Of a stretch of DNA of 45,170 bases, positions 3-40,775 are shown in pieces. Below the pieces are notes generated by a model. That model did not search any database. It was not told the origin of the DNA and worked only from the letters and a program-made list of their open reading frames with translations. Source of the stretch: Candidatus Tiddalikarchaeum anstoanum (GTDB lineage Archaea > Nanobdellota > Nanobdellia > Tiddalikarchaeales > Tiddalikarchaeaceae); the NCBI GenBank assembly GCA_902385255.1, contig CABMEV010000007.1:1-45170 (forward strand). The letters run 5' to 3'. Position 1 is the stretch's first letter. The number at the start of each line of letters is the position of its first letter. Position numbers and translations under genes: made by a program.

Positions 3-2504
3 AAGACTATCACTCCTATCATTGCCACTGTTTTATTAATATTAATGACTGTTGTTTCTGTCGCTGCAAGTTTTATCTGGGTTACAGAAGTAAGCACTAA
101 TTTAGAGGAGAATGCAGGAAGCAGTATCAGTCAGGAGGTAAGCAGTTGCTCTGGAATAAGCTTAATCAGCATGAGAGGCGATGAAGTATTAATCCAGAAT
201 ACAGGCTGTGACACAATCAATAATATCACATTACTAATTGACGGAGTATTAACAGATTATGATTTAAGTTCACCTTTAACCCCAGGGGAAAGCACCACAT
301 TATCATATACGAATCTTGCAGAAGGCGAAGACCACTGTGTCAAAATTTCATTAGGCAGCGGAGCAACATCTCAAGCGTGCAGCAATGCCATTCAGAACAC
401 TTTGGAAGGCGGATATGGCAGCAATTTTTCATCCTGGTTTTCAGGATGTCCCGTAAATAATCCCATTGTAGACTTTGACAACAAATTAACTTTTGAATTA
501 TCAGACAACATAAAATGCGGATGCCACAACTTATCTCCTGATAATCTTTTTGGCAACCCAAGTTTTGAGGATGATTCATACTGGACATTTTCAAACGCAA
601 CTATAAACAGCAGTGTTTCTCACTCAGGCAGCAGGTCTGCTTATTTATACAGGAATTCTGCTTTGCATGGTGCATCACAGAGTGCTTTTGGCACTGATCT
701 TGATTATAATATTGAAAACTTGAATTTTTATGCGCTTGTCAGTTCTAACTCTACAGGAGGATATTATACAGGTGTTATGATTGAATACCGTGATGAAAAT
801 AATACAGTCAACAGTCTTAGAATTTTATACATTGTTAATTCAAGCTCTGCACTGATTCCCATATGCGGCGGCTTCCCTGACCCGTCCAATACAACATACG
901 TTGACTGCTCAGCGGCATCCGGCGTCCTTGATGTCTGGCAGCATTATTCAATAACAGGAATTCATGATGAATTCCATACTATCTGGCCTGCTAATTTTAC
1001 AATACAGAATACTAAAACGCTTTCATTTACAGTTCAAAACCCTTTTGGTTCAGGAATTGGCGAAGCGTACTATGATGACATCTTCACAAATGCAACAGAA
1101 GAAGGTTACTTATGCGACAGCGAAAACGATAATGGTGTAGCTGACGGTTTATGCAGCAGCGGAAATTGTATTTCACAAACCGCTGACGCTAGTTCAGAAT
1201 TCTGTACTGCAGGAGGTTATACTTGGTTTACTGGAACTATATATGGAACTAATGGTGCATGTTGCGGTGATGATGGAGTAAGTGACTCATTTGTTAATAA
1301 TTCGGCAGGATGCTGTGATGGCAGCAAGTTTTTCAGCTGCACTGATAATAGCATTGGTGAAAAGTTCTGCGTCTGTGTTGGAGCATCATACATTGACACC
1401 TGCGGAGACAATATCTGCCAAAGTTGGGAGAACGCATCTACGTGTTCGTATGATTGTCCAAGCTGGGGTTCTGACGTTTTACTTGTAAATTATAATAATT
1501 ATACTAACCCTGTTTCTGATAATTCGGCAGCGGCAAACGGAAACAATATCTACTTTGCATTTTATGGTATGAGTGGAGCTAGACGTGATGTATATTTTAT
1601 GAACTCTTCAAATTATGGAGTTAACTGGTCTATTCCAATGAATATAACTAAGAATACTGATATTGACTCTGCTTTTTGTAACATAGCTGTCAACGGTTCA
1701 AAACTTCTTATCACTGATAATAATGCAGTAATAATGAGATTGTTTAACTCATCTGATGGGGGAGTTACTTGGTCAAATCAAACTTTAATGAATGGTATTG
1801 GTCCTATGATAGCTACGAATAATAATAATATTTATTTGGTGTATAAGACTGATTCAGCAGGCAAATCTTATGTGAATTTTGCAAATTCATCCGATTATGG
1901 TGTTTCATGGTCTAATAAAAGCATAACAACTAATGGTTCAGACCTTTATGCTCCAACTATTTCAAATAATGGTGATAATTTGCATGTTATTTGGAGAGAT
2001 GACAGGTATGGTATCCCTCAATTATTTTACAAACGTTCAACTGATGGCGGAATCACTTGGTCAAGTGATATGAATTTGTCAGGTTTTGCAAATGATATGC
2101 ATGTTGCTACAAGTGGAAACTACGTGCATATTATCTATACAACTTTAATAGGCTCTGCTGAGATTGTTTATATACGTTCAACTGATGGCGGAATCACTTG
2201 GTCTAATTATACTATTTTAAGCATAATGGATTCTCGCAGCGGAGACGTTCCAAGCTTGGCAGTATACGGCAGTGATGTTTATGTTGTTTGGCAAGAATTA
2301 GGAACACCGAACTTGATGTATTCAAGATGGTCAAATGATGACGGTTTAACATGGTCAAATTATACACAAGTTACTTCAAATACGTCATACAAATGGGTTA
2401 ACTCACTTACTGCAACACAAGATGGGGCATATTTCTTCTGGGATGATTATAGAAATGGCAATGCTGATGTTTACTATAACAGGTTTGCAACATCTAAAAT
2501 CTAG
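3..2504 (+). CDS. Pilin-like anchored surface protein with Asp-box (BNR) repeats, 5' partial
   Basis: The frame is open to the left edge, so the true start lies outside the window; the first visible internal Met is at 45. The first residues read KTITPIIATVLLILM, the hydrophobic segment of an archaeal type IV pilin (class III signal peptide). After this come a small beta domain, a carbohydrate-binding-like domain (around NPSFEDDSYW, about 550-1100), a Cys-rich region with CCGDDG, GIGEKFC and CGDNICQSWE motifs (about 1255-1465), and at least six Asp-box repeats of the type SSDGGVTWSN (about 1600-2370), suggesting a sialidase-like beta-propeller. Many N-x-S/T sequons fit an extracellular glycoprotein. 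Probable role: adhesion or glycan binding at the cell surface; enzymatic activity is not shown. It stops in a CTAG shared with the convergent nreA. Confidence 0.75.
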   Translation, partial: KTITPIIATVLLILMTVVSVAASFIWVTEVSTNLEENAGSSISQEVSSCSGISLISMRGDEVLIQNTGCDTINNITLLIDGVLTDYDLSSPLTPGESTTLSYTNLAEGEDHCVKISLGSGATSQACSNAIQNTLEGGYGSNFSSWFSGCPVNNPIVDFDNKLTFELSDNIKCGCHNLSPDNLFGNPSFEDDSYWTFSNATINSSVSHSGSRSAYLYRNSALHGASQSAFGTDLDYNIENLNFYALVSSNSTGGYYTGVMIEYRDENNTVNSLRILYIVNSSSALIPICGGFPDPSNTTYVDCSAASGVLDVWQHYSITGIHDEFHTIWPANFTIQNTKTLSFTVQNPFGSGIGEAYYDDIFTNATEEGYLCDSENDNGVADGLCSSGNCISQTADASSEFCTAGGYTWFTGTIYGTNGACCGDDGVSDSFVNNSAGCCDGSKFFSCTDNSIGEKFCVCVGASYIDTCGDNICQSWENASTCSYDCPSWGSDVLLVNYNNYTNPVSDNSAAANGNNIYFAFYGMSGARRDVYFMNSSNYGVNWSIPMNITKNTDIDSAFCNIAVNGSKLLITDNNAVIMRLFNSSDGGVTWSNQTLMNGIGPMIATNNNNIYLVYKTDSAGKSYVNFANSSDYGVSWSNKSITTNGSDLYAPTISNNGDNLHVIWRDDRYGIPQLFYKRSTDGGITWSSDMNLSGFANDMHVATSGNYVHIIYTTLIGSAEIVYIRSTDGGITWSNYTILSIMDSRSGDVPSLAVYGSDVYVVWQELGTPNLMYSRWSNDDGLTWSNYTQVTSNTSYKWVNSLTATQDGAYFFWDDYRNGNADVYYNRFATSKI
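2033..2203 (+). repeat. Two identical 30-base copies inside the Asp-box region
   Basis: Positions 2033-2062 and 2174-2203 are identical over 30 bases and encode the same RSTDGGITW motif in the same frame, 141 bases (47 codons) apart. Neighbouring Asp-boxes are diverged at the DNA level, so this pair looks like recent duplication or gene conversion between propeller blades. Confidence 0.85.
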
Positions 2505-3667
2505 ATTATAAAACTCGTAATTTTTTTCTGAGTTTTAAAATGATTATATAATTTGCTGTCTTTCAGTAAAAAGTGTATTGGTGTAATTATAGGGAGATAA
2601 TTTAACAATTCATTCTCAGAATTGAACTGTTTAACATTACTTGCCGCGTTTCTTGATGCCTGCCTGACAACCCAGACTCCAATAGGGCAATAATATTCGC
2701 TGGTAATTTGGCGCAGAACAATTACCGCAGCTTGTTTTTTTATCTTATTTAAATATTCAAGCACTCCAAGCCTTGCGGCGTAATACCCTCCTGCGGTGTT
2801 ATACGCGTAATCACTCCTGCCTTTGTACATTTCAACATCACGGCAGTACTCATTGCCGTTGGTAGTCTCAAAAAGTTCATAGCCAAAAACATCAGGGAGG
2901 AGTATAATAGTATAATAGTTGCCGTACAACGAACCGTTAAGTATTTCATAATGATCGATTAAAGGATAATTCTTGACATTCGCGATTAATTGTTTGCCAA
3001 CCCCGTCATCTACTGCAGTGATGCTCCACCTAGTTGGTACGAGTTTTCGCTCTTTCTTCACGCCTAACGCACCGCTTGATAAAATATGAGATATTGTATT
3101 CTCGTCAAAACCTTTATTGTAAAGTAAACCCATTGCTTTGGTGCTTTTCAAGTCAGTGTCATTGAAGCATTTTTCAACAACAGGCTTAATCCTCGGATTA
3201 TCGCAGACAGTAAGTTTTGCAACTTCGCTTGAAGGGCCCATAGGATTACTTATGAAATCGTACTTTAAACTTGGAGTTGGAGCTTTCTTCAATGAGACTT
3301 CTATATCTAAGGGCTTATAAGACAACGCAACCTCCTGCACTTTTCCAATAAAACTGTCGGATAATTTTTTTACACAACTCGCACTTTTGTTGTTCACCAG
3401 GTTCCTTCTCTTATCAACAACTTGGGAAATATTGTAAGACTTGCTCCATAGTTTCGGGTCATCGTAAGTCTTTGCAAGAGGTGTCTGAAACTGCAGGCTC
3501 ATAATTCCCACATAAACATTCGGATAATTGTAGTGCCCGATGAATACAGAAGGGCTCGTTCCGGTGAAATCTTTCTTGAATTCTATGCTTTTGAAAGCCT
3601 CGCTCTGCCACTTGCAGGTTTTCCCGCAGAAGCCCCTCCCTTTGCAGCGAATACATTGAATCTCCAT
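2501..3667 (-). CDS. nreA: NreA-family DNA repair protein
   Basis: Archaeal Nre proteins take part in DNA-damage repair and bind the sliding clamp PCNA. The N-terminus has four cysteines (C5, C8, C14, C18, as MEIQCIRCKGRGFC), the family's zinc-like signature. The C-terminus ends in QKKITSFII, a PCNA-interacting (PIP) box of the form Q-x-x-I-x-x-F-I placed right at the end. The length of 388 aa is normal for the family. I chose the ATG at 3667 because it begins directly before the zinc motif; an in-frame TTG at 3679 adds four residues. Its stop overlaps the convergent upstream gene's stop in a CTAG. Family assignment is from motifs I can see and recall of the family. Confidence 0.85.
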   Translation of the reverse strand: MEIQCIRCKGRGFCGKTCKWQSEAFKSIEFKKDFTGTSPSVFIGHYNYPNVYVGIMSLQFQTPLAKTYDDPKLWSKSYNISQVVDKRRNLVNNKSASCVKKLSDSFIGKVQEVALSYKPLDIEVSLKKAPTPSLKYDFISNPMGPSSEVAKLTVCDNPRIKPVVEKCFNDTDLKSTKAMGLLYNKGFDENTISHILSSGALGVKKERKLVPTRWSITAVDDGVGKQLIANVKNYPLIDHYEILNGSLYGNYYTIILLPDVFGYELFETTNGNEYCRDVEMYKGRSDYAYNTAGGYYAARLGVLEYLNKIKKQAAVIVLRQITSEYYCPIGVWVVRQASRNAASNVKQFNSENELLNYLPIITPIHFLLKDSKLYNHFKTQKKITSFII

Positions 3668-3760
3668 TAGTTTAAGCAATAATCTGTTTTCTTTAAAAAT
3701 GTTGCAGAGTAAACTTCCTTTAATTGGGACATTTTTGAAATACTGGGTTTTTTAGCAAGT

Positions 3761-3836
3761 TTTTTAAACTGCTTTAGCCGAATTATTATTTATCTTGCTG
3801 GATGATAAGCGTATCAGCTTGATCAGCAAAGAGGTG
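3761..3836 (+). promoter_or_regulatory. Promoter and Shine-Dalgarno of the L15e gene
   Basis: A T-rich TATA-like element TTTTTAAACT lies at 3761-3770, and a second candidate (ATTATTTATCTT) at about 3782-3793. GAGGTG at 3831-3836 is a good Shine-Dalgarno nine bases before the ATG at 3846. The L15e message therefore probably has a leader, unlike many genes in this window. Confidence 0.55.
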
Positions 3837-3845
3837 TAAAAATAT

Positions 3846-4424
3846 ATGGGTTTGTATAAGTATTTAAGCAAGTTGTGGCAGAATCCTAAAAAGCACAACT
3901 TACAATATCGTGACCACTTGGTTGCGTGGCGTGACGAGCCTGTGCTTGTCCGCGTAGATAAGCCGACGCGTGTTGACAGGGCTAGAAGCTTAGGCTATAA
4001 GGCTAAGCAGGGAGTTGTTGTCATACGCGCCAGGATAAGGAAAGGAGGCAGGAAGCGTGAAGCAACACATATGGGAAGAAAGCCTTCGAAAGCAGGTAAA
4101 GTGCACTTCTCGCCTAAGCAGTCACTGCAGAATATTTCTGAGATTCGTGTTGCAAAAAAATATCCTAACCTTAGAGTGCTAAACAGTTACGAAGTAGGAG
4201 ATGACGGAAAACACAAATGGTATGAGGTTATACTCATAGATACAGGTCACCCTCAGATTTTCAAGGACAAGGATTACGCACCGCTCTGCACTAACAAGCA
4301 CAGAGGAAGAGAGAGTCGTGGGCTTACAAGCAGCGCGAAGATATCAAGAGGATTAAAGAACAAAGGTATCGGCGCAGAAAAACTAAGGCCAAGCATAAGA
4401 GCACACGGCAGAATGGGAAAATAA
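3846..4424 (+). CDS. rpl15e: 50S ribosomal protein L15e
   Basis: Large-subunit ribosomal protein of archaea and eukaryotes that binds 23S rRNA. The sequence is typical along its whole 192 aa: MGLYKYLSKLW at the start, the basic RARIRKGGRKRE segment in the middle, YEVILIDTGHP about two-thirds along, and the glycine- and arginine-rich tail with RAHGRMGK at the end. Start is fixed by the conserved N-terminus and a GAGGTG ribosome binding site nine bases upstream. It is transcribed alone, between convergent or divergent neighbours. Nothing is odd. Confidence 0.98.
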   Translation: MGLYKYLSKLWQNPKKHNLQYRDHLVAWRDEPVLVRVDKPTRVDRARSLGYKAKQGVVVIRARIRKGGRKREATHMGRKPSKAGKVHFSPKQSLQNISEIRVAKKYPNLRVLNSYEVGDDGKHKWYEVILIDTGHPQIFKDKDYAPLCTNKHRGRESRGLTSSAKISRGLKNKGIGAEKLRPSIRAHGRMGK

Positions 4425-4427
4425 AAT

Positions 4428-4451
4428 TCCCTTTCTTATTTTATTTTTTTC
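4428..4451 (+). terminator. T-rich terminator after L15e
   Basis: A run of pyrimidines with several T-tracts starts just after the L15e stop. Oligo-T tracts are the intrinsic termination signal of archaeal RNA polymerase. It overlaps the end of the convergent gene at 4450. Confidence 0.5.
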
Positions 4452-5181
4452 AAATATTATTTTCCTGATTATTTTCAAGTTCTATAATATCCTTCAGATT
4501 ATATTTTGTTTTTGGAACATTGGTTATTAAATCTTTTATCCCAAACTCATCATAAGAATCCAATGCTATTTTGCGTTCTAAACATTCAGGGAATATTAGT
4601 GAAACAAGGAGATAAGTGCACCATTCCATCTTTTTATAATATTCAATACCTGCATGATTATAATTAACATGCTGTAATGCATGGTGTATCTCCTCATAAA
4701 TGTCAGGAGCCAAGCTGAACTTCGGGCTCAGCATTATATTCTTATCCTCGTTAGAAAATGTTCCAAGAGTTGAAGTATTGTTAAGTTCAACACTTATATC
4801 AGCATCACCTTTTGAAAAAAGCAAGTACCTGCCAACGCTCGATAATACTTTAATGTTCAGGTTTTGAACCGAAAAAGGCATTATTATCCTGTTCTGGAAT
4901 ATTAAACCTGAGTCTATTAACGTAATATCTTGCATAAGCTCTAAAGATTTTTTAACGCTTAAATCCAAACTGTTAACATCACCAGTCTCGTATGCATTTT
5001 TGATTATGCCAAACTCTTTTTGTGCATCAAAACTGTAACCTCTGATGAGCATTATTTTTTGGCAATAATTATCATTTTTAACATAATCTTTTATTTTGCT
5101 GTTAAACTCTTTGTCAGATATCTGGGACTTGGCCAGCCTGTTAAGTTTTACAATTAATGCTTCAAGTTCCCCCTCAATCAT
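4450..5181 (-). CDS. Unknown protein with degenerate zincin-like motif
   Basis: I do not recognise this 243-aa protein. It is predicted soluble, with no signal peptide. Residues 163-171 read EEIHHALQH. This resembles the zincin helix HELxHALQ, except that the first His of HExxH is Glu, while extra His residues are present nearby. A following acidic segment (PECLERKIALDSYDE, about 199-213) sits where gluzincins carry their third ligand. A catalytically altered or dead metallopeptidase is therefore possible, but this is inference. It lies 42 bases downstream of the large unknown gene at 5224-7128 on the same strand and is probably cotranscribed with it. Confidence 0.6.
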   Translation of the reverse strand: MIEGELEALIVKLNRLAKSQISDKEFNSKIKDYVKNDNYCQKIMLIRGYSFDAQKEFGIIKNAYETGDVNSLDLSVKKSLELMQDITLIDSGLIFQNRIIMPFSVQNLNIKVLSSVGRYLLFSKGDADISVELNNTSTLGTFSNEDKNIMLSPKFSLAPDIYEEIHHALQHVNYNHAGIEYYKKMEWCTYLLVSLIFPECLERKIALDSYDEFGIKDLITNVPKTKYNLKDIIELENNQENNI

Positions 5182-5223: not shown

Positions 5224-7128
5224 CTACTTATCAGTAACATTACCGGCTAATTTGGGCAGTATTGAAATTACCGAACCTGCAATTGATTTTTCGTAATTGT
5301 TTTTAACAGTTTTGTACTCGTTTTCAAGTTCTTTATTATTTAACAAAAGGAATATTTTTTCTAAAATATTAATTAAATTATTATTATCCTTATTAACATT
5401 AATAGTTTTAATTAAGCGGCGGGATAAGTATTTCTTTGCATCTTCCATAATCTCCTTGTCAACACTTGTTTCATCAATGAAAGATTTAATCTTTTCAATT
5501 AACCTTTCAGCAGTTTCATGGCCGGACAAGACTTTTATGAAATCGGAATTTATTAATTCGATTACGTTTTCATTAACTTTACGTGCATATTCATTAATTG
5601 CTGCGCGTCTTATATTATATTTTTCTTTGCTGAATAAAGTGCTTGCCCTTATTAGATTGTGATAGAATTCTCTGAATAAGTCAGTCGAAAACGCGGTGCT
5701 GCTGACTTTTGAACTCTGTCTTAAATTGCTGAACACCATTTCAGGCTCCAATAATTTTTTAGAAGATAGTTTATTTTCAAGAATCTGGAGTATAGTTAAA
5801 TAAATGTCATACATAGTTTTTTTATCTTGAACTAGTTCATTGTCTTCAAACACATAACTGTTAATAATTTGTTCTGCTATTTTGTCATAATCTACGCCTT
5901 TAATATTTTTTTCTAACACGTATATTAATTTTGTATAATACTCTTTTGATTGAAAATTTATGATAATATTATTCTTCAAATTTTCAATTACATTGGTTAT
6001 TTGTGCTTTTTGTATAATTTCATCTGATAATAAATGATAACTTCCATCTTCAACTTCTATTACGTATCTCGAACCTTTTTCAGGTATATCACGGCGAAAC
6101 TCATTAAATATTGTTAAGCCGCCCATAAACGATTCCAAATCAAACGCGTTTTTTATTATTAACTCATCTTTTTCAGTTAGAGATGAAACATTCATATCTT
6201 TAATATTTAAAGATGTAAATAAACCTTCCACTTCAGTTACATTTTTAACACTATTTGATATATTCACTAATAATTTTACATTTGCGTTTACTATTTTTTC
6301 ATTTATTAGTCTAAATTTATTGATGTTGTTTAGGTTAAATTTAAAATTCTTATCTAAATTAATCCAAATAATATAGTCATCAAATTCTAAAAATTCCACC
6401 ATTTGATTTAATCCAATTTTTTTATCATCCATGAAAATAACATGGAATACTCTTTTTAGTGTTATACTTACATTTTTTAATAAGTTGAATAATGCAGCCA
6501 TATGGCTCATATAAATAGATTCAAACTCTTTCTCAGTTGGATAGTATCCGGAGTAGTAAGGAGTACTATTTTGCGTAATTCCAAAAAGTATTCCTCCATA
6601 TTTTTTAATTTCATAATCGGATAACTCTTTTTCTCTGACAGCTTGGCTTGCTAAGTTATTGTCAAACTCGATCTTGCCTTCCTTGTCTTTATTTTGCCTG
6701 ATTATATTGATAATAGTTTCGGGCACTTCAACAAATATGGAATAATTCTGAGTTCCCTTAAGTTTGCCTTTGTTAATCAGTAATATATTATGCACGCTTT
6801 CGCCGATTATACTGTCTTCACTGCCGGATTTTACATTGACAATAGTCCCATTAAAACTAGGCATGGAATATATTTCCTGTTCGTACTTTCGTATTTCATC
6901 ATCTGACTCTTTTCCATAACAAAAAACAGTGCCCGGGATGTTTATACCGCGCAAAGAACCATTATTATCGAATTCCAGCAAAACGTAAGGATTATGATTA
7001 TTTATTAATGAGGCGCCTTTAATTAAAACAGAAACTGAAGGATTATTCCTCTTTAAACCCTGTATTATACCCGCATCTATTTTTGATATCTTAATCTTCT
7101 TAATCTCATCTATGATAGTGCCGGCCAT
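5224..7128 (-). CDS. Large unknown soluble protein (634 aa)
   Basis: No family is recognised. The protein is rich in Asn, Ile and Lys, has no signal peptide or clear membrane segment, and appears mixed alpha/beta in the first 350 residues and largely helical in the last 250 (about 390-620), where spaced Leu/Ile and charged residues suggest helical bundles or coiled coil. The ATG at 7128 begins MAGTIIDEIKK. It is the first gene of a two-gene unit with the degenerate zincin-like gene and is divergent from secF. Its base composition looks more AT-rich than that of its neighbours, which may mean fast evolution or transfer. Confidence 0.6.
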   Translation of the reverse strand: MAGTIIDEIKKIKISKIDAGIIQGLKRNNPSVSVLIKGASLINNHNPYVLLEFDNNGSLRGINIPGTVFCYGKESDDEIRKYEQEIYSMPSFNGTIVNVKSGSEDSIIGESVHNILLINKGKLKGTQNYSIFVEVPETIINIIRQNKDKEGKIEFDNNLASQAVREKELSDYEIKKYGGILFGITQNSTPYYSGYYPTEKEFESIYMSHMAALFNLLKNVSITLKRVFHVIFMDDKKIGLNQMVEFLEFDDYIIWINLDKNFKFNLNNINKFRLINEKIVNANVKLLVNISNSVKNVTEVEGLFTSLNIKDMNVSSLTEKDELIIKNAFDLESFMGGLTIFNEFRRDIPEKGSRYVIEVEDGSYHLLSDEIIQKAQITNVIENLKNNIIINFQSKEYYTKLIYVLEKNIKGVDYDKIAEQIINSYVFEDNELVQDKKTMYDIYLTILQILENKLSSKKLLEPEMVFSNLRQSSKVSSTAFSTDLFREFYHNLIRASTLFSKEKYNIRRAAINEYARKVNENVIELINSDFIKVLSGHETAERLIEKIKSFIDETSVDKEIMEDAKKYLSRRLIKTINVNKDNNNLINILEKIFLLLNNKELENEYKTVKNNYEKSIAGSVISILPKLAGNVTDK

Positions 7129-7238
7129 TAGACGTAATATAAATCATTATTTTTTTATAAATTATATCTATTAAATGCTAAACCTGTAAAAATGGGCCAA
7201 GTAATATTTTTAAAGCCTTAGAGGTAACAATTTTACCT
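7129..7238. promoter_or_regulatory. Divergent promoter region (unknown gene pair / secF)
   Basis: TTTTTAAAG at 7207-7215 lies about 28 bases before the secF ATG at 7239, the spacing of a leaderless archaeal promoter. TTTTTATAAATTATA at about 7150-7165 can serve the minus-strand gene starting at 7128. A TAGAGGTAA element at 7219-7227 precedes secF; the same word occurs before the rubrerythrin gene. Confidence 0.5.
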
Positions 7239-8138
7239 ATGCGCATTACTACCAGATTGTTTAATTTCTATTATAATAATTATAAGAAGCTACTGATAAT
7301 ACCTATACTATTTTTAATATTCAACCTATCAGTCATATTTTACACATGGATAAATATAGGAAGCCCTGTATACCTGGATTCCAGCATCAAAGGTGGAGCT
7401 GTTTTCACATTCAAATACAACGGCACAATTGATATTTCAGCCCTCGAACAGTCAATCCAGACATCTCTTAATTCAAATGACGTATCTGTGGTGTTAATCA
7501 GAAGCGCTTTATCAAACGATATACTGGGCTATGAGATACATGTTGATGAGACTATAACTGAAGAAGATGTCAGATTATCTGTTGAGCAATACTTAAACGT
7601 ACAGTTGGATAATTCTATGATAAGTTTCACAAGACAGTCCAGCAACTTAGGTTCATCATTTCTGTCCCAGTCACTAACCTTGATTGCTATAGGATTCTTG
7701 TTCGTAACAATAGTGTCTTATTTGTCACTTAAAAAAAATATCATCCCGAGCCTTACAACACTTATATCAACAATACTTGACGTGATAGGTATTATCGCCT
7801 TCCTTGATTTATTCCAAATCAGGTTCAGTGTCGGAACAATAGGTGCGTTATTGATGATTATAGGATACTCTGCAGATTCAGACATACTTCTTGCAACTAA
7901 TATACTAAAAAGCGAGCCTGAAAAATTAAAAGAGAACACTAAAAATGCAATGATAACTATTTTTACAATGAACTTCACAGCATTATCCACATATTTAATT
8001 ATGCTGCTGTTATCCAACGTTGAAATAATAAAACATATAGCAACAATATTATTATTAGGGATATTCTATGATGCTTTAGACTCATGGCTTGGGGCAAGAG
8101 GAGTAATACAGAGAATGTATGCGGAGAAGAAAAAATGA
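7239..8138 (+). CDS. secF: Protein translocase subunit SecF
   Basis: SecF pairs with SecD in the membrane and supports protein export through SecYEG. The 299-aa sequence has an N-terminal membrane helix (about 18-36), an external P1-type domain that opens with the conserved glycine pair (SIKGGAVFTF), and a block of five membrane helices from about 145 to the end, including the RND-like segment GTIGALLMIIGYSADSD with its conserved Asp and Ser. Its ATGA stop/start overlaps secD by four bases, so the two are translationally coupled. The neighbouring export-dependent lipoprotein operon fits the context but is not proof of a link. Confidence 0.93.
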   Translation: MRITTRLFNFYYNNYKKLLIIPILFLIFNLSVIFYTWINIGSPVYLDSSIKGGAVFTFKYNGTIDISALEQSIQTSLNSNDVSVVLIRSALSNDILGYEIHVDETITEEDVRLSVEQYLNVQLDNSMISFTRQSSNLGSSFLSQSLTLIAIGFLFVTIVSYLSLKKNIIPSLTTLISTILDVIGIIAFLDLFQIRFSVGTIGALLMIIGYSADSDILLATNILKSEPEKLKENTKNAMITIFTMNFTALSTYLIMLLLSNVEIIKHIATILLLGIFYDALDSWLGARGVIQRMYAEKKK

Positions 8139-9664
8139 AATGGTATACTTTTCTTAAAGAGTGGAGAATAACATTAATGGTTTTAATGGTAATGATAAGC
8201 ATATACGCGCTAAAACCAAACTTTCAGCCGGATGGCGTGATGATAACGGGCGTAACTTCACCGGCAGCTAATTATTTGACAACAGGCAAAGTAATTGTAG
8301 AAATAAACAATTTTGCCATACATAACATTTCAGATTTTAATTATATAACCTCGAGAATAAACCCGAATGATATAGTAAACGTTGTATACTTGGATGGCAA
8401 TGAAAGAGTGCACGCGTACCCATTTTTTGCCGAGGAAATTAATAATGAAACAGCTGTTGGAATAAGCGTCACCCCTGTCTCTTTTTCAGATTTAGAATTT
8501 GGAATAGATTTGAAAGGCGGAACCAGAGTCATACTCGCACCTAACGAGACTGTAACAACAGACCAATTGGCTAATATTGTAGGTATAATAGAGCAGCGTA
8601 TGAATATTTATGGATTCAAAGAGTTAAGGATAAACCCAATAACTGACTTGTCAGGAAAAAGTTATGTACAAATAGAACTGCCAAGCTCAGTTGGCGTGAA
8701 CGGTATAAGAGACTTGCTTGAGCGACAGGGAAGGTTCGAAGCAAGGATTGGCAACGATTCAGTGTTCACAGGAAGCGACATAGTCAGTGTATGCTTGACC
8801 AATGTAGGATGCAATTCAGAGATTAGAACTACAGACAGCGGCACGTACGCTTTCATGTTCCAAATATTCATAAGCGAGGAAGGGGCAAGCCGATTCGCTA
8901 ATGTTACAAGAAATCTTACAAGGACAATTGGAACGCCATGCTATTTAAGTGAAGATATAAGCTTCTATCTTGACAATGAACAGTTAAGCGGAAGCAGTCT
9001 TAAAATATCCTGCGAGCTTCAGGGCGTCTCTGAAAGAAAACCGACAATAACTGGCGGCGCAAAAACTTACGAGCAAGCAGTTAATGAGATGAACCGCTTA
9101 AGAAGTATGCTGCAGACGGATAATCTTCCTGTAAGCATGAAAATAGAAAACATACAGACAATATCACCAATACTTGGTAATAATTTCTTAAACAACATAG
9201 TGGAAGTATTCTTAATAGCAATATTAGGCGTTGACTTAATAATAGTAATCAGGTACAGGAATCTCAGGCTGGCAATACCTATCATAATTGCAACATTATC
9301 AGAGATAACTATAACATTAGGTGTTGCGACATTAATGAAATGGACTTTTGACTTATCAGCAATAGCTGGAATGATAGCGGGAATAGGTACAGGAGTTGAC
9401 GATCAGATAATAATCAGCGACGAAGCACTTAGAGGAAGAGGCAAAGAGGAGGGTCATTTAAGGATGAAGGACAAAATTAAGAAAGCGTTCTTCATAGTTA
9501 TGGTCGTATTCTTAATGAATATTGCATTAATGGTGCCATTATCATTTGCAGGAGCAGGAATACTGAGAGGCTTTGCGATTACAACAATGATATCAGTCAG
9601 TGTTGGAGTATTAATAACGAGACCTGCATTTGGACGAATGCTGGAATTATCAATAAAAGAATAA
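8135..9664 (+). CDS. secD: Protein translocase subunit SecD with PDZ-like N-terminal insert
   Basis: SecD partner of the preceding SecF. I chose the ATG at 8135, which overlaps the secF stop as ATGA and gives 509 aa; an upstream in-frame ATG at 8084 lies inside secF and would add a non-hydrophobic extension. After the first membrane helix (about 12-26), residues 35-112 look like a PDZ domain: GVTSPAANYL, then a VIVEINN strand and a DFNYITSRI helix. The canonical SecD motif FGIDLKGGT follows at about 122-130. The C-terminal half has the membrane block with IAGMIAGIGTGVDDQIIISDE. The PDZ call is by eye from strand and glycine pattern. Confidence 0.92.
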   Translation: MKWYTFLKEWRITLMVLMVMISIYALKPNFQPDGVMITGVTSPAANYLTTGKVIVEINNFAIHNISDFNYITSRINPNDIVNVVYLDGNERVHAYPFFAEEINNETAVGISVTPVSFSDLEFGIDLKGGTRVILAPNETVTTDQLANIVGIIEQRMNIYGFKELRINPITDLSGKSYVQIELPSSVGVNGIRDLLERQGRFEARIGNDSVFTGSDIVSVCLTNVGCNSEIRTTDSGTYAFMFQIFISEEGASRFANVTRNLTRTIGTPCYLSEDISFYLDNEQLSGSSLKISCELQGVSERKPTITGGAKTYEQAVNEMNRLRSMLQTDNLPVSMKIENIQTISPILGNNFLNNIVEVFLIAILGVDLIIVIRYRNLRLAIPIIIATLSEITITLGVATLMKWTFDLSAIAGMIAGIGTGVDDQIIISDEALRGRGKEEGHLRMKDKIKKAFFIVMVVFLMNIALMVPLSFAGAGILRGFAITTMISVSVGVLITRPAFGRMLELSIKE

Positions 9665-34016: not shown

Positions 34017-34679
34017 TTATATAGTTTCGACTATATTTTCAGAATTTTCAAAAATTTTATATATAATATTTTTAAGTTTTCCCTCAATAATCTTAGTTGC
34101 ATCTATAAAATTATCAAGAATCAAACTGTTTAATCCGTTCATTAACTTATTCTTCTTCAGATAATCGTAAAGTTCGAATCTTTTCGCAGTAATGACTGAT
34201 ATTTTTTTAACAGCATTGCCATAATCCTTGAATTCATTAATGATAACTTCTGAAAACATATCGCCATCCGCGCATAATATTAACTTTGACAGGCGAACCT
34301 GGTCATTGAATATTCCGCGTACGTGGTTGAAAACCTCTCCTCCTTCCTTGTTCTCCTTTGTCTCCCATAACATATCATCAAGGCCGCAGTAATACCTAAA
34401 ACAGTCATTGACATCATTTATTGTCCTGTTAGGCAAATCCATCTTGTTTCTGAATGTTTTAACCCCGTTGATTTTAGACATGTATTCAGGAAATGAGAAA
34501 TTTAAATTATAATCTGGCTGCATGCTTCCCGCTTTTACTGAGAGCATTAACTGCATGTTAACCCTTTTAAAAACGCCGCCAACAAAAGGAGTAATGAGAG
34601 GGTTCCTGTTCGTTACCTGCTTGTAAGTTTCGTCTATTACGTTGCCAAACTCGGTTAATAATAAGTTATAACTAATCAT
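34017..34679 (-). CDS. Unknown protein (220 aa) next to the RiPP-like cluster
   Basis: I do not recognise this protein. It is predicted soluble, begins MISYNLLLTEFG and has alternating helices and strands, with FRYYCGLDDMLWETKENKEG in the middle and a long basic helix (about 195-215) at the end. It is divergent from the peptide gene at 34824, separated by a 144-base region that holds the peptide promoter, so a functional link is possible but unproved. Confidence 0.55.
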   Translation of the reverse strand: MISYNLLLTEFGNVIDETYKQVTNRNPLITPFVGGVFKRVNMQLMLSVKAGSMQPDYNLNFSFPEYMSKINGVKTFRNKMDLPNRTINDVNDCFRYYCGLDDMLWETKENKEGGEVFNHVRGIFNDQVRLSKLILCADGDMFSEVIINEFKDYGNAVKKISVITAKRFELYDYLKKNKLMNGLNSLILDNFIDATKIIEGKLKNIIYKIFENSENIVETI

Positions 34680-34792: not shown

Positions 34793-34801
34793 GTTTAAAA
34801 A
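34793..34801 (+). promoter_or_regulatory. TATA box of the RiPP precursor gene
   Basis: GTTTAAAAA, preceded by AATAAA (a possible BRE), lies 23-31 bases before the ATG at 34824. This is the spacing of a strong leaderless archaeal promoter and supports the small gene as real. Confidence 0.6.
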
Positions 34802-34823: not shown

Positions 34824-35000
34824 ATGGCACAGATGTATGAAACTAGTAGTTTAGAAGAAACTGTCGGGCAGGTTAAAATTAACAAAGAGAAGAATCCTGA
34901 AACGTATAAGTCTCGAAATTTGGCTACTTACGCAAAAAGAGCATTTGTTCTAGATTCAATATATAATCCAGTATCATGTCATTCCTGTAACGGCCCGTAG
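34824..35000 (+). CDS. Candidate RiPP precursor peptide (58 aa) with C-terminal CHSCNGP core
   Basis: The peptide starts MAQMYETSSLEETVGQ, continues with a charged region (INKEKNPETYKS), then ATYAKRAFVLDSIYNPV, and ends SCHSCNGP followed by TAG. The only cysteines are C52 and C55, five and eight codons before the stop, with Ser on both sides and Gly-Pro at the end. A charged leader with a short C-terminal Cys/Ser/Gly core is the usual RiPP layout. It has a well-placed TATA box and lies 48 bases before a radical SAM/SPASM gene in the same direction. Which residues are modified and where it is cut cannot be told. If TAG were read through, ten more codons would follow; I consider it a stop. Confidence 0.72.
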   Translation: MAQMYETSSLEETVGQVKINKEKNPETYKSRNLATYAKRAFVLDSIYNPVSCHSCNGP

Positions 35001-35048: not shown

Positions 35049-36467
35049 GTGGAAACTGAATCTTATAAGCGGTCTAGTAACGCGACATTAAAAGCGCCAA
35101 TAGGTGTACAAATATTAGTTAATAACATATGCAACCATTCTTGTTTCTACTGTAGTTCTGGCGCGGTACAGCAAGAGGAATCTTCTAACAAATACAGCGC
35201 TATGAGCAATGAAAACGCGTATGAATTTGTTGACATAATATCCAGGGATATCAATCCATATTATGCTGTATGCACCGGCGGCGAGCCTACACTTTCAATG
35301 AAGCCGCTTTCAGCATTAATGATGGGCTTTAAACAAAAAAATATACCCACTCATCTTAATACTAACCTGACGGCAGTTTCAGGCGAGGAGTTTAATGACT
35401 TAATCTTATTATTAAAAAGATGCAATTCTTCAGTGTTAACTTCACTGCCGCATTATGACGGGGCAGTTTACAAAAAAATAACATCTAAAGATGACATAAA
35501 CTTATTCTATAACAACTTAAACAGCCTGATTTCCGAAGACATAAATATTACAGTAAATATGGTTGTGCATAAATTAAACCATAAAGATGTCTATCATACT
35601 GGAAAATTACTGTTTGAAAAATATGGATTGAAAAATTTTGCAGCAACACCATTAGTAGTGTCCTCGAATAATCTTTTTCCTAATAAAAATATCGTCCTCA
35701 AACCTGATGAATTATTTGACGTATTCAGGGATTTGCTGAGATTGAATAGTGATTTAAACATGCAGGTAGACTGTCTTGAAGTAATACCCCGATGTTCCAT
35801 ACCTGAAGATATAAGATACAACGCTTCAGGATTGTTCAAACGCGCATGCAGTGCGGGGAGTTCAACACTCTTAATTGATTACTTAGGATTTATACGCCCA
35901 TGTTCCTTCTTTCCAGAAGTTAATGATGACAAATACAACATATTGAAAACACCATTCAGCGAAATCTGGGAGTATTTGAAGCCTTACCGAGATAATGAGC
36001 ATATAAGTGATGAATGTAAAACTTGTTATGAAATTGAAGACTGCAATGGCGGCTGCCGGGTTTTTGGAGTTGACAAGGATGGATTTACAGGGTCAGATTC
36101 CAGAATAACAGGGCCTATTTTTAAGACTGCAAAAAATGAGATTGAAAAATTATCACCGAATAATATTTATTCCTTTAATAAAGATATGAAATTCAGAAAA
36201 GAACAGCGGGATATTTATACATTCTTTAACGGCCAAATATCCAACAGGTCAAGCATAATATTCGTAACCTACGGTTTTAAACAATTTTGCGAAAATTTCA
36301 TCAAAGAAACACGAAACTACTTCACATTAGACGATGTTGTAAACGCTGCAGGTGTTGAGAATAAGGAAAAAATAACCGAACTAATGAAGTATCTGCTTCA
36401 GAAAAAATACATATACCCTGCAAATAAACATGATTTAACCACTTCCAGCGAGCCTTTGGGGGAATAA
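35049..36467 (+). CDS. Radical SAM/SPASM peptide maturase with C-terminal extension
   Basis: A radical SAM core binds the first [4Fe-4S] through C28, C32 and C35 (CNHSCFYC); the SAM-binding motif GGEP is at 77-80. The SPASM domain is very clear: C267, G280 and C285 (C-x12-G-x4-C) and C323, C326, C332 and C336 (C-x2-C-x5-C-x3-C), which bind one or two auxiliary clusters. SPASM proteins typically modify ribosomal peptides (thioether, C-C or decarboxylative chemistry). Residues about 385-472 add a helical, winged-helix-like tail that might bind the leader peptide, as RRE domains do elsewhere; this is inference. Start is GTG at 35049, 472 aa. The chemistry on the CHSC core is unknown. Confidence 0.9.
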   Translation: METESYKRSSNATLKAPIGVQILVNNICNHSCFYCSSGAVQQEESSNKYSAMSNENAYEFVDIISRDINPYYAVCTGGEPTLSMKPLSALMMGFKQKNIPTHLNTNLTAVSGEEFNDLILLLKRCNSSVLTSLPHYDGAVYKKITSKDDINLFYNNLNSLISEDINITVNMVVHKLNHKDVYHTGKLLFEKYGLKNFAATPLVVSSNNLFPNKNIVLKPDELFDVFRDLLRLNSDLNMQVDCLEVIPRCSIPEDIRYNASGLFKRACSAGSSTLLIDYLGFIRPCSFFPEVNDDKYNILKTPFSEIWEYLKPYRDNEHISDECKTCYEIEDCNGGCRVFGVDKDGFTGSDSRITGPIFKTAKNEIEKLSPNNIYSFNKDMKFRKEQRDIYTFFNGQISNRSSIIFVTYGFKQFCENFIKETRNYFTLDDVVNAAGVENKEKITELMKYLLQKKYIYPANKHDLTTSSEPLGE

Positions 36468-36524: not shown

Positions 36525-37151
36525 ATGTTCATGCAAAAAGATAATTTTTTGATTAAATGCTCGGATGAAGATGAACGACTTATAAATTCAATAAATCTCT
36601 CAAAAATATACAAAGACGTAACCGCTTTCTTCGACTTTAAGAGAAAAATCACTATTAAGATATACTTTTTAGAATCAGTTGACGAGTTTCATTTCTTCTC
36701 AGGCTACAAGTTTGAAAAGTGGATGTGCAGTTATACAGGAATAAAGAATATGATAACACTATTCTCGCCAAGGGCCATTGAAAAATATACAATACACAAA
36801 GCTGATGAAGTGCCTGGTGTGATAACTCACGAGTTAGCGCATATAATTTATGAACAGATGGGTCTTAGGGATATAAGATTATTAAATGACGGCATATCCA
36901 ATTATCTTCAGTTTAAAGACAATAGCAGCAAAAGCAAAGAACACTTTAACCTCTCAAACATCGACTTCTTCTCTGACTCCTTAAACTATTACCAGGACGG
37001 GCCTGTAGTCATAAAAGAAATTATTGAAAAATTCGGCAAAGAAAAATTGTTCGAATTCTTGGAAGAAGCAGTTGATTACCCGAACGAGGAACTAAACGAA
37101 TTGTTTAAAAAATTCTTCGGCGATAAAACAAAAAAGAATACTAAAAAATAA
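36525..37151 (+). CDS. HELAH metallopeptidase, candidate leader protease
   Basis: The 208-aa protein contains PGVITHELAHIIYEQMG with H102-E103-L-A-H106 as zinc ligands and base. The segment LLNDGISNYLQ (120-129) takes the place of the usual gluzincin NEGxAxY third-ligand motif, with Asp122 instead of Glu. No signal peptide, so it acts in the cytoplasm. It lies 57 bases after the radical SAM gene, with its own TATA-like box (TTTAATATA near 36490-36498). It could remove the leader or trim the modified peptide; no substrate is shown. Confidence 0.78.
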   Translation: MFMQKDNFLIKCSDEDERLINSINLSKIYKDVTAFFDFKRKITIKIYFLESVDEFHFFSGYKFEKWMCSYTGIKNMITLFSPRAIEKYTIHKADEVPGVITHELAHIIYEQMGLRDIRLLNDGISNYLQFKDNSSKSKEHFNLSNIDFFSDSLNYYQDGPVVIKEIIEKFGKEKLFEFLEEAVDYPNEELNELFKKFFGDKTKKNTKK

Positions 37152-40382: not shown

Positions 40383-40775
40383 ATGGTTGGCGAAAAAAAA
40401 TTCAATGATTTGAACATGACAATTATACCTTTATTAGAGTCGAAATTGTTAAACGCGGGCTGTAACTTCTTGTACTTGGATTGCCTGAAGCGTCAATACA
40501 TCTTCAAATACGTGGATGAGAAAGGACTAGTCTCTAACGAATTGCTCTTTAAAAACATGAAGAGTTACTATAATAATCTCAAAAGGATTATGCCTAAAAT
40601 AATTGGCGGCTTATTATGCAGGCAGAAAATACATGCCGAATCCCAAAGAATAATGGAATTAGAAAGATATGACACTGATATAAACTGCAGCGGTTATTAT
40701 GATGCAGGCTGTTACGATTGCGAGGGATTCGATAAAAGCTGCGGTTTTTACACTAAGAAACCTGAAATATTCTAA
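40383..40775 (+). CDS. Small Cys-rich protein, unknown
   Basis: The 130-aa protein is basic in its middle and ends with a Cys-rich segment CSGYYDAGCYDCEGFDKSC (about 102-120), with four Cys and several Asp/Tyr; three more Cys lie earlier (C27, C34 and C79). No signal peptide, so a metal-binding site (zinc or Fe-S) is more likely than disulfides. No family recognised. A TATA box upstream supports the start. Confidence 0.65.
   Translation: MVGEKKFNDLNMTIIPLLESKLLNAGCNFLYLDCLKRQYIFKYVDEKGLVSNELLFKNMKSYYNNLKRIMPKIIGGLLCRQKIHAESQRIMELERYDTDINCSGYYDAGCYDCEGFDKSCGFYTKKPEIF

Follow-up and report, generated by a model that had tools for sequence, protein, structure and literature searches.

A Cys-tailed peptide gene beside a radical-SAM/SPASM enzyme and a zinc peptidase as a probable RiPP precursor in a DPANN-type archaeon

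By analyzing a 45,170-nucleotide stretch of DNA (the window), one contig of the 1.16-Mb genome of a DPANN-type archaeon, we found a 58-aa peptide ORF whose product is probably a precursor that the adjoining radical-SAM enzyme turns into a modified peptide. The peptide ORF is followed after a 48-bp gap by a radical-SAM/SPASM gene and then by the gene of an HExxH zinc peptidase. Because this three-gene set recurs with other Cys-tailed peptides, the peptide is very probably raw material for a RiPP. The original prediction had called it a precursor peptide, and this is supported by the adjacent radical-SAM/SPASM enzyme with its RRE-like domain, by the zinc peptidase and by the same arrangement in 14 relatives. 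The position of a short precursor-like gene next to a radical-SAM/SPASM gene is also a general feature of radical-SAM RiPP loci.

The peptide ORF lies on the forward strand, from an ATG at 34,824 to a TAG ending at 35,000, and encodes MAQMYETSSLEETVGQVKINKEKNPETYKSRNLATYAKRAFVLDSIYNPVSCHSCNGP; its coordinates, strand and sequence were re-read from the DNA and agree exactly with those first reported. Its only two Cys residues, at positions 52 and 55, are indeed at the extreme C-terminus (...NPVSCHSCNGP), as had been noted, with a leader of about residues 1–49 and a core around V50–P58 (VSCHSCNGP), a putative boundary. The accompanying claim that default annotation would miss this gene was overstated, since its 58 codons exceed the 30-codon floor usual for gene callers. 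When small ORFs outside larger genes were filtered for a C-terminal C-x(0-4)-C pair, only this ORF (n = 1), adjoining the radical-SAM gene, passed in the 45-kb window. Codon usage by itself is inconclusive as to whether the ORF is real or spurious: its codon score is lower than that of 97% of same-length pieces of real genes, and is matched or beaten by 16% of spurious ORFs. This ambiguity is settled by the gene neighbourhood. A TATA-like box (TTTAAAAA, 34,794–34,801, forward strand), proposed from the consensus, of which it matches 7 of 8 positions, lies 30–23 bases upstream of the ATG; TATA-like scores of at least 7 were found for 14 of 37 genes versus about 8% of random intergenic places. 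A leaderless transcript beginning close to the ATG, or right at it, would plausibly fit this box, and the peptide is presumably expressed. If 34,824–35,000 were instead an untranslated, spurious ORF with the true precursor elsewhere, the ambiguous codon statistics would be expected, as would our finding no homologue of the peptide in the other four genomes of its family; we consider this highly improbable, given that the ORF fills the precursor's place in the gene set, that its C-terminal Cys pair sits in a family-like context (P = 0.0001, see below), that the TATA-like box is at the right distance, and that there is no other candidate nearby.

The adjoining gene (35,049–36,467, forward strand, GTG start) encodes a radical-SAM/SPASM peptide maturase of 472 aa (Pfam PF04055, 3.3e-12; TIGR04085 SPASM, 4.6e-8), with the CxxxCxxC motif at C28–C35 (CNHSCFYC). 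An alignment of 13 of these enzymes shows that the three cluster Cys are kept, together with the SPASM-region residues C249, C267, C285, C323, C326, C332 and C336. The final SPASM Cys, which usually closes the second auxiliary cluster, is absent in all 13. The closest solved sequence is SkfB (E 2.1e-29), and the nearest solved enzymes also include the peptide-modifying 5v1q, PqqE and TigE. Dozens of NCBIfam radical-SAM models match the enzyme, of which only the general SPASM domain model TIGR04085 is passed (33.4 versus a cut-off of 27 bits); all the maturase models score far under their cut-offs. The sactipeptide maturase model StsB gave 25.9 bits (cut-off 625), PapB 40.3 bits (2.2e-10; cut-off 340), PqqE 29.5 bits (cut-off 381) and the mycofactocin maturase 36.1 bits (cut-off 265). 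None of the curated families covers this enzyme at its cut-off.

The last 100 residues of the enzyme make up a separate domain (36,150–36,464, forward strand), which is predicted to be RRE/PqqD-like from Foldseek searches with an AlphaFold model (pLDDT 85.6). Its best matches were TigE (prob 1.00, E 0.025) and the RRE of PbtF (0.99, 0.047), followed by a LynD-type heterocyclase, MadB, TruD, NisB and McbBCD; most of these proteins are known RRE carriers. All E-values were above 0.001 despite probabilities of 0.99–1.00, and neither a Pfam scan nor a profile search of solved sequences gave a PqqD match for the domain. An RRE is nonetheless the best reading of the model because the fold matches are coherent. 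In two relatives (G107 and G040), the RRE-like domain is a gene of its own, of 83–85 aa, directly after the radical-SAM gene. The match to the radical-SAM enzyme begins past residue 100 in SkfB, 5v1q and TigE (at residue 107 in SkfB), which would leave room for an N-terminal RRE in those proteins, whereas the RRE-like domain of the window enzyme follows the radical-SAM part.

The third gene (36,525–37,151, forward strand) encodes a gluzincin-like HExxH zinc peptidase of 208 aa, with HELAH at residues 102–106. Its model (pLDDT 89.5) matches M9 collagenase and M1 aminopeptidases in Foldseek (prob up to 1.00, E above 0.001), and its relatives match Peptidase_MA_2. The third zinc-ligand position is D122 (LLNDG) in the window peptidase and Glu (xxEG) in ten relatives, and an Asp as predicted third ligand calls for caution about the activity of the window protein. 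The proteases already known from RiPP pathways include M1 and M61 metalloproteases (PMC10885120). At one locus (L064 in G255, 1382–1879), a transglutaminase-like protein (PF04473) replaces the HExxH peptidase beside an eight-Cys peptide. As the transglutaminase-like gene fills the HExxH place there, this swap suggests that the protease of the set is exchangeable.

Relatives were collected from genomes of the class, queried first with the radical-SAM enzyme and then with alignments, plus one scan of named genomes with a three-member alignment that yielded three records; all belong to the same archaeal class, under public names such as Candidatus Nanoarchaeia and Candidatus Pacearchaeota. Leaving out the matches in G004 and G408, which lie at contig ends, all 14 relatives of the radical-SAM enzyme with a readable neighbourhood have a short ORF nearby whose C-terminal part is rich in Cys. 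A C-terminal core with modifiable residues recurs with the enzyme, another general feature of radical-SAM RiPPs. An HExxH gene is found beside 13 of the 14 relatives (14 of 15 loci counting the window), with G255 as the exception, and the order or strand of the peptidase varies among some loci. As a control, we applied one fixed filter, a same-strand Cys-tailed small ORF no more than 900 bp from the gene, and 12 of 14 radical-SAM loci passed (counting the window but leaving out G384, found later) versus 2 of 83 control genes. Both loci missed by the filter do have a peptide: that of L056 carries Cys in both halves, and that of G084 overlaps the next gene. No relatives were found on viral contigs.

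The peptides next to these enzymes include those of G003 (Cys-rich part ...LCECHCDCYYECHCDNP...), G021 (C-terminal ...YCIACDRCDVCDVSCNSLPRP), L056 (Cys-rich part ...NCNATCDNICDDFCNDC...), G124 (C-terminal ...VCDDYCDCDGGVDGDTCDSGVCDIE), G084 (Cys-rich part ...SCNSCAGCNNGGPTCVSCVC...) and G384 (Cys-rich part ...SCEKPCVCVCVC...), and the pair from G107 and G040 (...ACKSCQC[NV]C...). Further Cys-tailed peptides occur at the loci of G246, G255, G292, G300, G328 and G078. In G003 (37% for the radical-SAM enzyme), the exact CHSCNGP is not conserved while the Cys-rich C-terminal part is kept. CxC and CxxC repeats occur in other cores of the family, and the number and spacing of core Cys differ between loci.

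Among 15 of these peptides, including that of the window, the residues after core Cys are biased. D or N follows at +1 in 31 cases versus 16.8 expected (P < 0.001), S is in excess at +2, as is G at +3 (15 versus 6.4 expected; P ≤ 0.001), giving a family preference of C-[D/N]-[S/G]-G. Taken together, D, N and E are up at +1, depleted at +2 and +3, and show no significant excess at +4. The two window sites (C-HSC and C-NGP) fit the profile of the other 14 precursors with P = 0.0001, outscoring 99.99% of sets drawn at random from the window peptide's own residues. Whole-length similarity between the window peptide and the other precursors is unconvincing (best P 0.017 of 14 comparisons). Searches for a shared leader motif with widths of 8–12 were unstable, with 2 to 13 of 100 shuffles reaching the score, and we therefore claim no motif. 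As the window peptide is the poorest in Cys (2 versus 4–8 in the others), it appears from its sequence to be a minimal or diverged member of the family. CxxC is also a common metal or thiol motif, and the CxC and CxxC repeats of the other cores, together with a cation ATPase gene about 4 kb downstream, would suit an unmodified small metal-binding or redox protein, with the radical-SAM enzyme acting on some other substrate. We judge this to be distinctly unlikely, because Cys-tailed peptides are strongly linked to one radical-SAM family with an RRE-like domain, and to the peptidase, and because metal binding needs no preference for D/N and G after Cys.

If the window peptide is instead a substrate of its neighbour, as we favour, the C-terminal RRE-like domain of the radical-SAM/SPASM enzyme would hold the leader, and the radical-SAM site would then modify the Cys-containing tail. 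By analogy with SkfB- and PapB-type enzymes, the most likely product is a thioether, in which a Cys sulphur is joined to a carbon of another residue; for the window tail we put this chemistry at roughly even odds. The gluzincin-type peptidase would then cut off the leader and leave a short modified peptide ending in ...SCHSCNGP.

The set resembles several known systems in part. Sactipeptides (SkfA/SkfB, subtilosin AlbA) likewise have a small precursor with core Cys and a SPASM-type radical-SAM enzyme with an RRE, but here the RRE-like domain is C-terminal, the linked peptidase is a gluzincin and the hosts are archaeal; SkfB, though the closest solved sequence, is only a remote relative of the window enzyme. 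Ranthipeptides (SCIFF/CteB, PapA/PapB freyrasin) share Cys-rich cores with acidic residues and a radical-SAM/SPASM maturase, but the +4 position of their C-x3-D/E spacing shows no significant excess here, where D/N is enriched at +1 and the window core has no Asp. Because the tested features of these two classes were not found, we class the set apart from both, as a variant of radical-SAM RiPPs. The C-terminal domain has its best fold match in the TigE system of Paramaledivibacter caminithermalis (PDB 8vpo), whose enzyme is also a sequence relative of the radical-SAM core. In this comparison of the enzymes, however, the radical-SAM/SPASM match covers residues 111–450 of the TigE chain, with its RRE part probably before it. 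In class II/III lanthipeptide pathways (AplP, MfuP), M1/M61 metalloproteases are similarly tied to peptide maturation (PMC10885120), but modification is by lanthipeptide synthetases rather than by radical SAM.

PQQ biosynthesis (PqqA, PqqD, PqqE and a peptidase) also combines a peptide, an RRE-like partner (separate here in G107 and G040), a SPASM radical-SAM enzyme and a zinc peptidase. It differs in that the cores described here are Cys-rich rather than Glu/Tyr, that the peptidase is M1/M9-like whereas PqqF is M16, and that the RRE-like domain is C-terminally fused in most loci. This likeness raises a sub-case of the modified-peptide reading with another product: the tail could be modified by the radical-SAM enzyme and excised by the peptidase as a small intracellular redox or metal cofactor, in the manner of PQQ or mycofactocin. 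The SPASM enzyme, the RRE-like domain (stand-alone like PqqD in two relatives) and the zinc peptidase would all serve such a pathway, PqqE is among the nearest solved proteins, there is no exporter beside the window genes, and a rubrerythrin gene is nearby, though on the opposite strand. As a rule, the core of a cofactor precursor is strongly conserved, whereas these cores vary in Cys number and spacing between loci; the distribution is also sparse (31 of 378 class genomes, even when the cut-off is loose enough to admit other radical-SAM families). We thus regard a cofactor as an unlikely product.

To our knowledge, the peptide natural products of DPANN-type archaea have hardly been explored; for many of these organisms, a life attached to other cells is assumed. 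The three-gene set lets one ask whether such archaea, whose genomes here are about 0.5–1.5 Mb, use modified peptides on their neighbours or as cofactors, and its compactness and hypervariable Cys-rich peptides make it a ready candidate for in vitro reconstitution. The enzymes should also interest radical-SAM chemists, as they lack the final SPASM Cys and have their RRE-like domain at the C-terminus. Radical-SAM RiPP classes have been reported in archaea, including DPANN, in work that does not describe the present set (PMC12144867). In literature searches of partial coverage, we found no description of this three-gene set and no work combining Woesearchaeota, RiPP and radical SAM. We tentatively raise the idea, which we think more doubtful than not, that these archaea have a class of Cys-rich RiPP of their own. 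Its peptides would be built around C-[D/N]-[S/G]-G units, and the SPASM enzyme that makes them would have an RRE at its C-terminus and a non-standard site for the auxiliary cluster. The linkage would then be unlike the sactipeptide and ranthipeptide ones, and the product might act between the small archaeon and its host or its rivals.

In a Pacearchaeota MAG (L058 in G021, 1860–4193), a second, different set lies within a few kb of the family locus, with a 54-aa tandem-repeat peptide (MELRCKGWCHDKYEMRCKGWCHDG), a 469-aa radical-SAM/SPASM gene and an HExxH-type gene; it resembles a further RiPP cluster, one in which the core is repeated. L065 (G292, 194–4734) is a hybrid cluster of an HExxH peptidase, an ATP-grasp-like protein (weak Pfam matches), a radical-SAM enzyme, a peptide with a Cys tail and a 342-aa protein that belongs to no known family and has remote relatives beside radical-SAM genes in G152 and G408 (BLASTP E ~5e-8). 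L066 (G300, 5905–9248) has two radical-SAM/SPASM genes in tandem, a zinc peptidase and a peptide with a NCAWGRCVWGQCNYSRK tail (C-x-W-G and C-x-W-G-like units).

In the window itself, we saw no transporter, dedicated exporter or second modification enzyme adjoining the gene set. Divergent from the peptide gene is a 220-aa protein (34,017–34,679, reverse strand) that matches nothing in Pfam or NCBIfam and has no relative among the family's other four genomes. The flanking genes of the window are mostly unconserved across those four genomes; rubrerythrin is present in one of them, on a contig other than that of its radical-SAM gene. The genes farther away are ordinary and include, besides the rubrerythrin, two epimerase-like proteins and the P-type cation ATPase. 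Directly before the ATPase gene, a 130-aa protein of unknown family (40,383–40,775, forward strand) has a Cys-rich C-terminal part (CSGYYDAGCYDCEGFDKSCGFYTKKPEIF).
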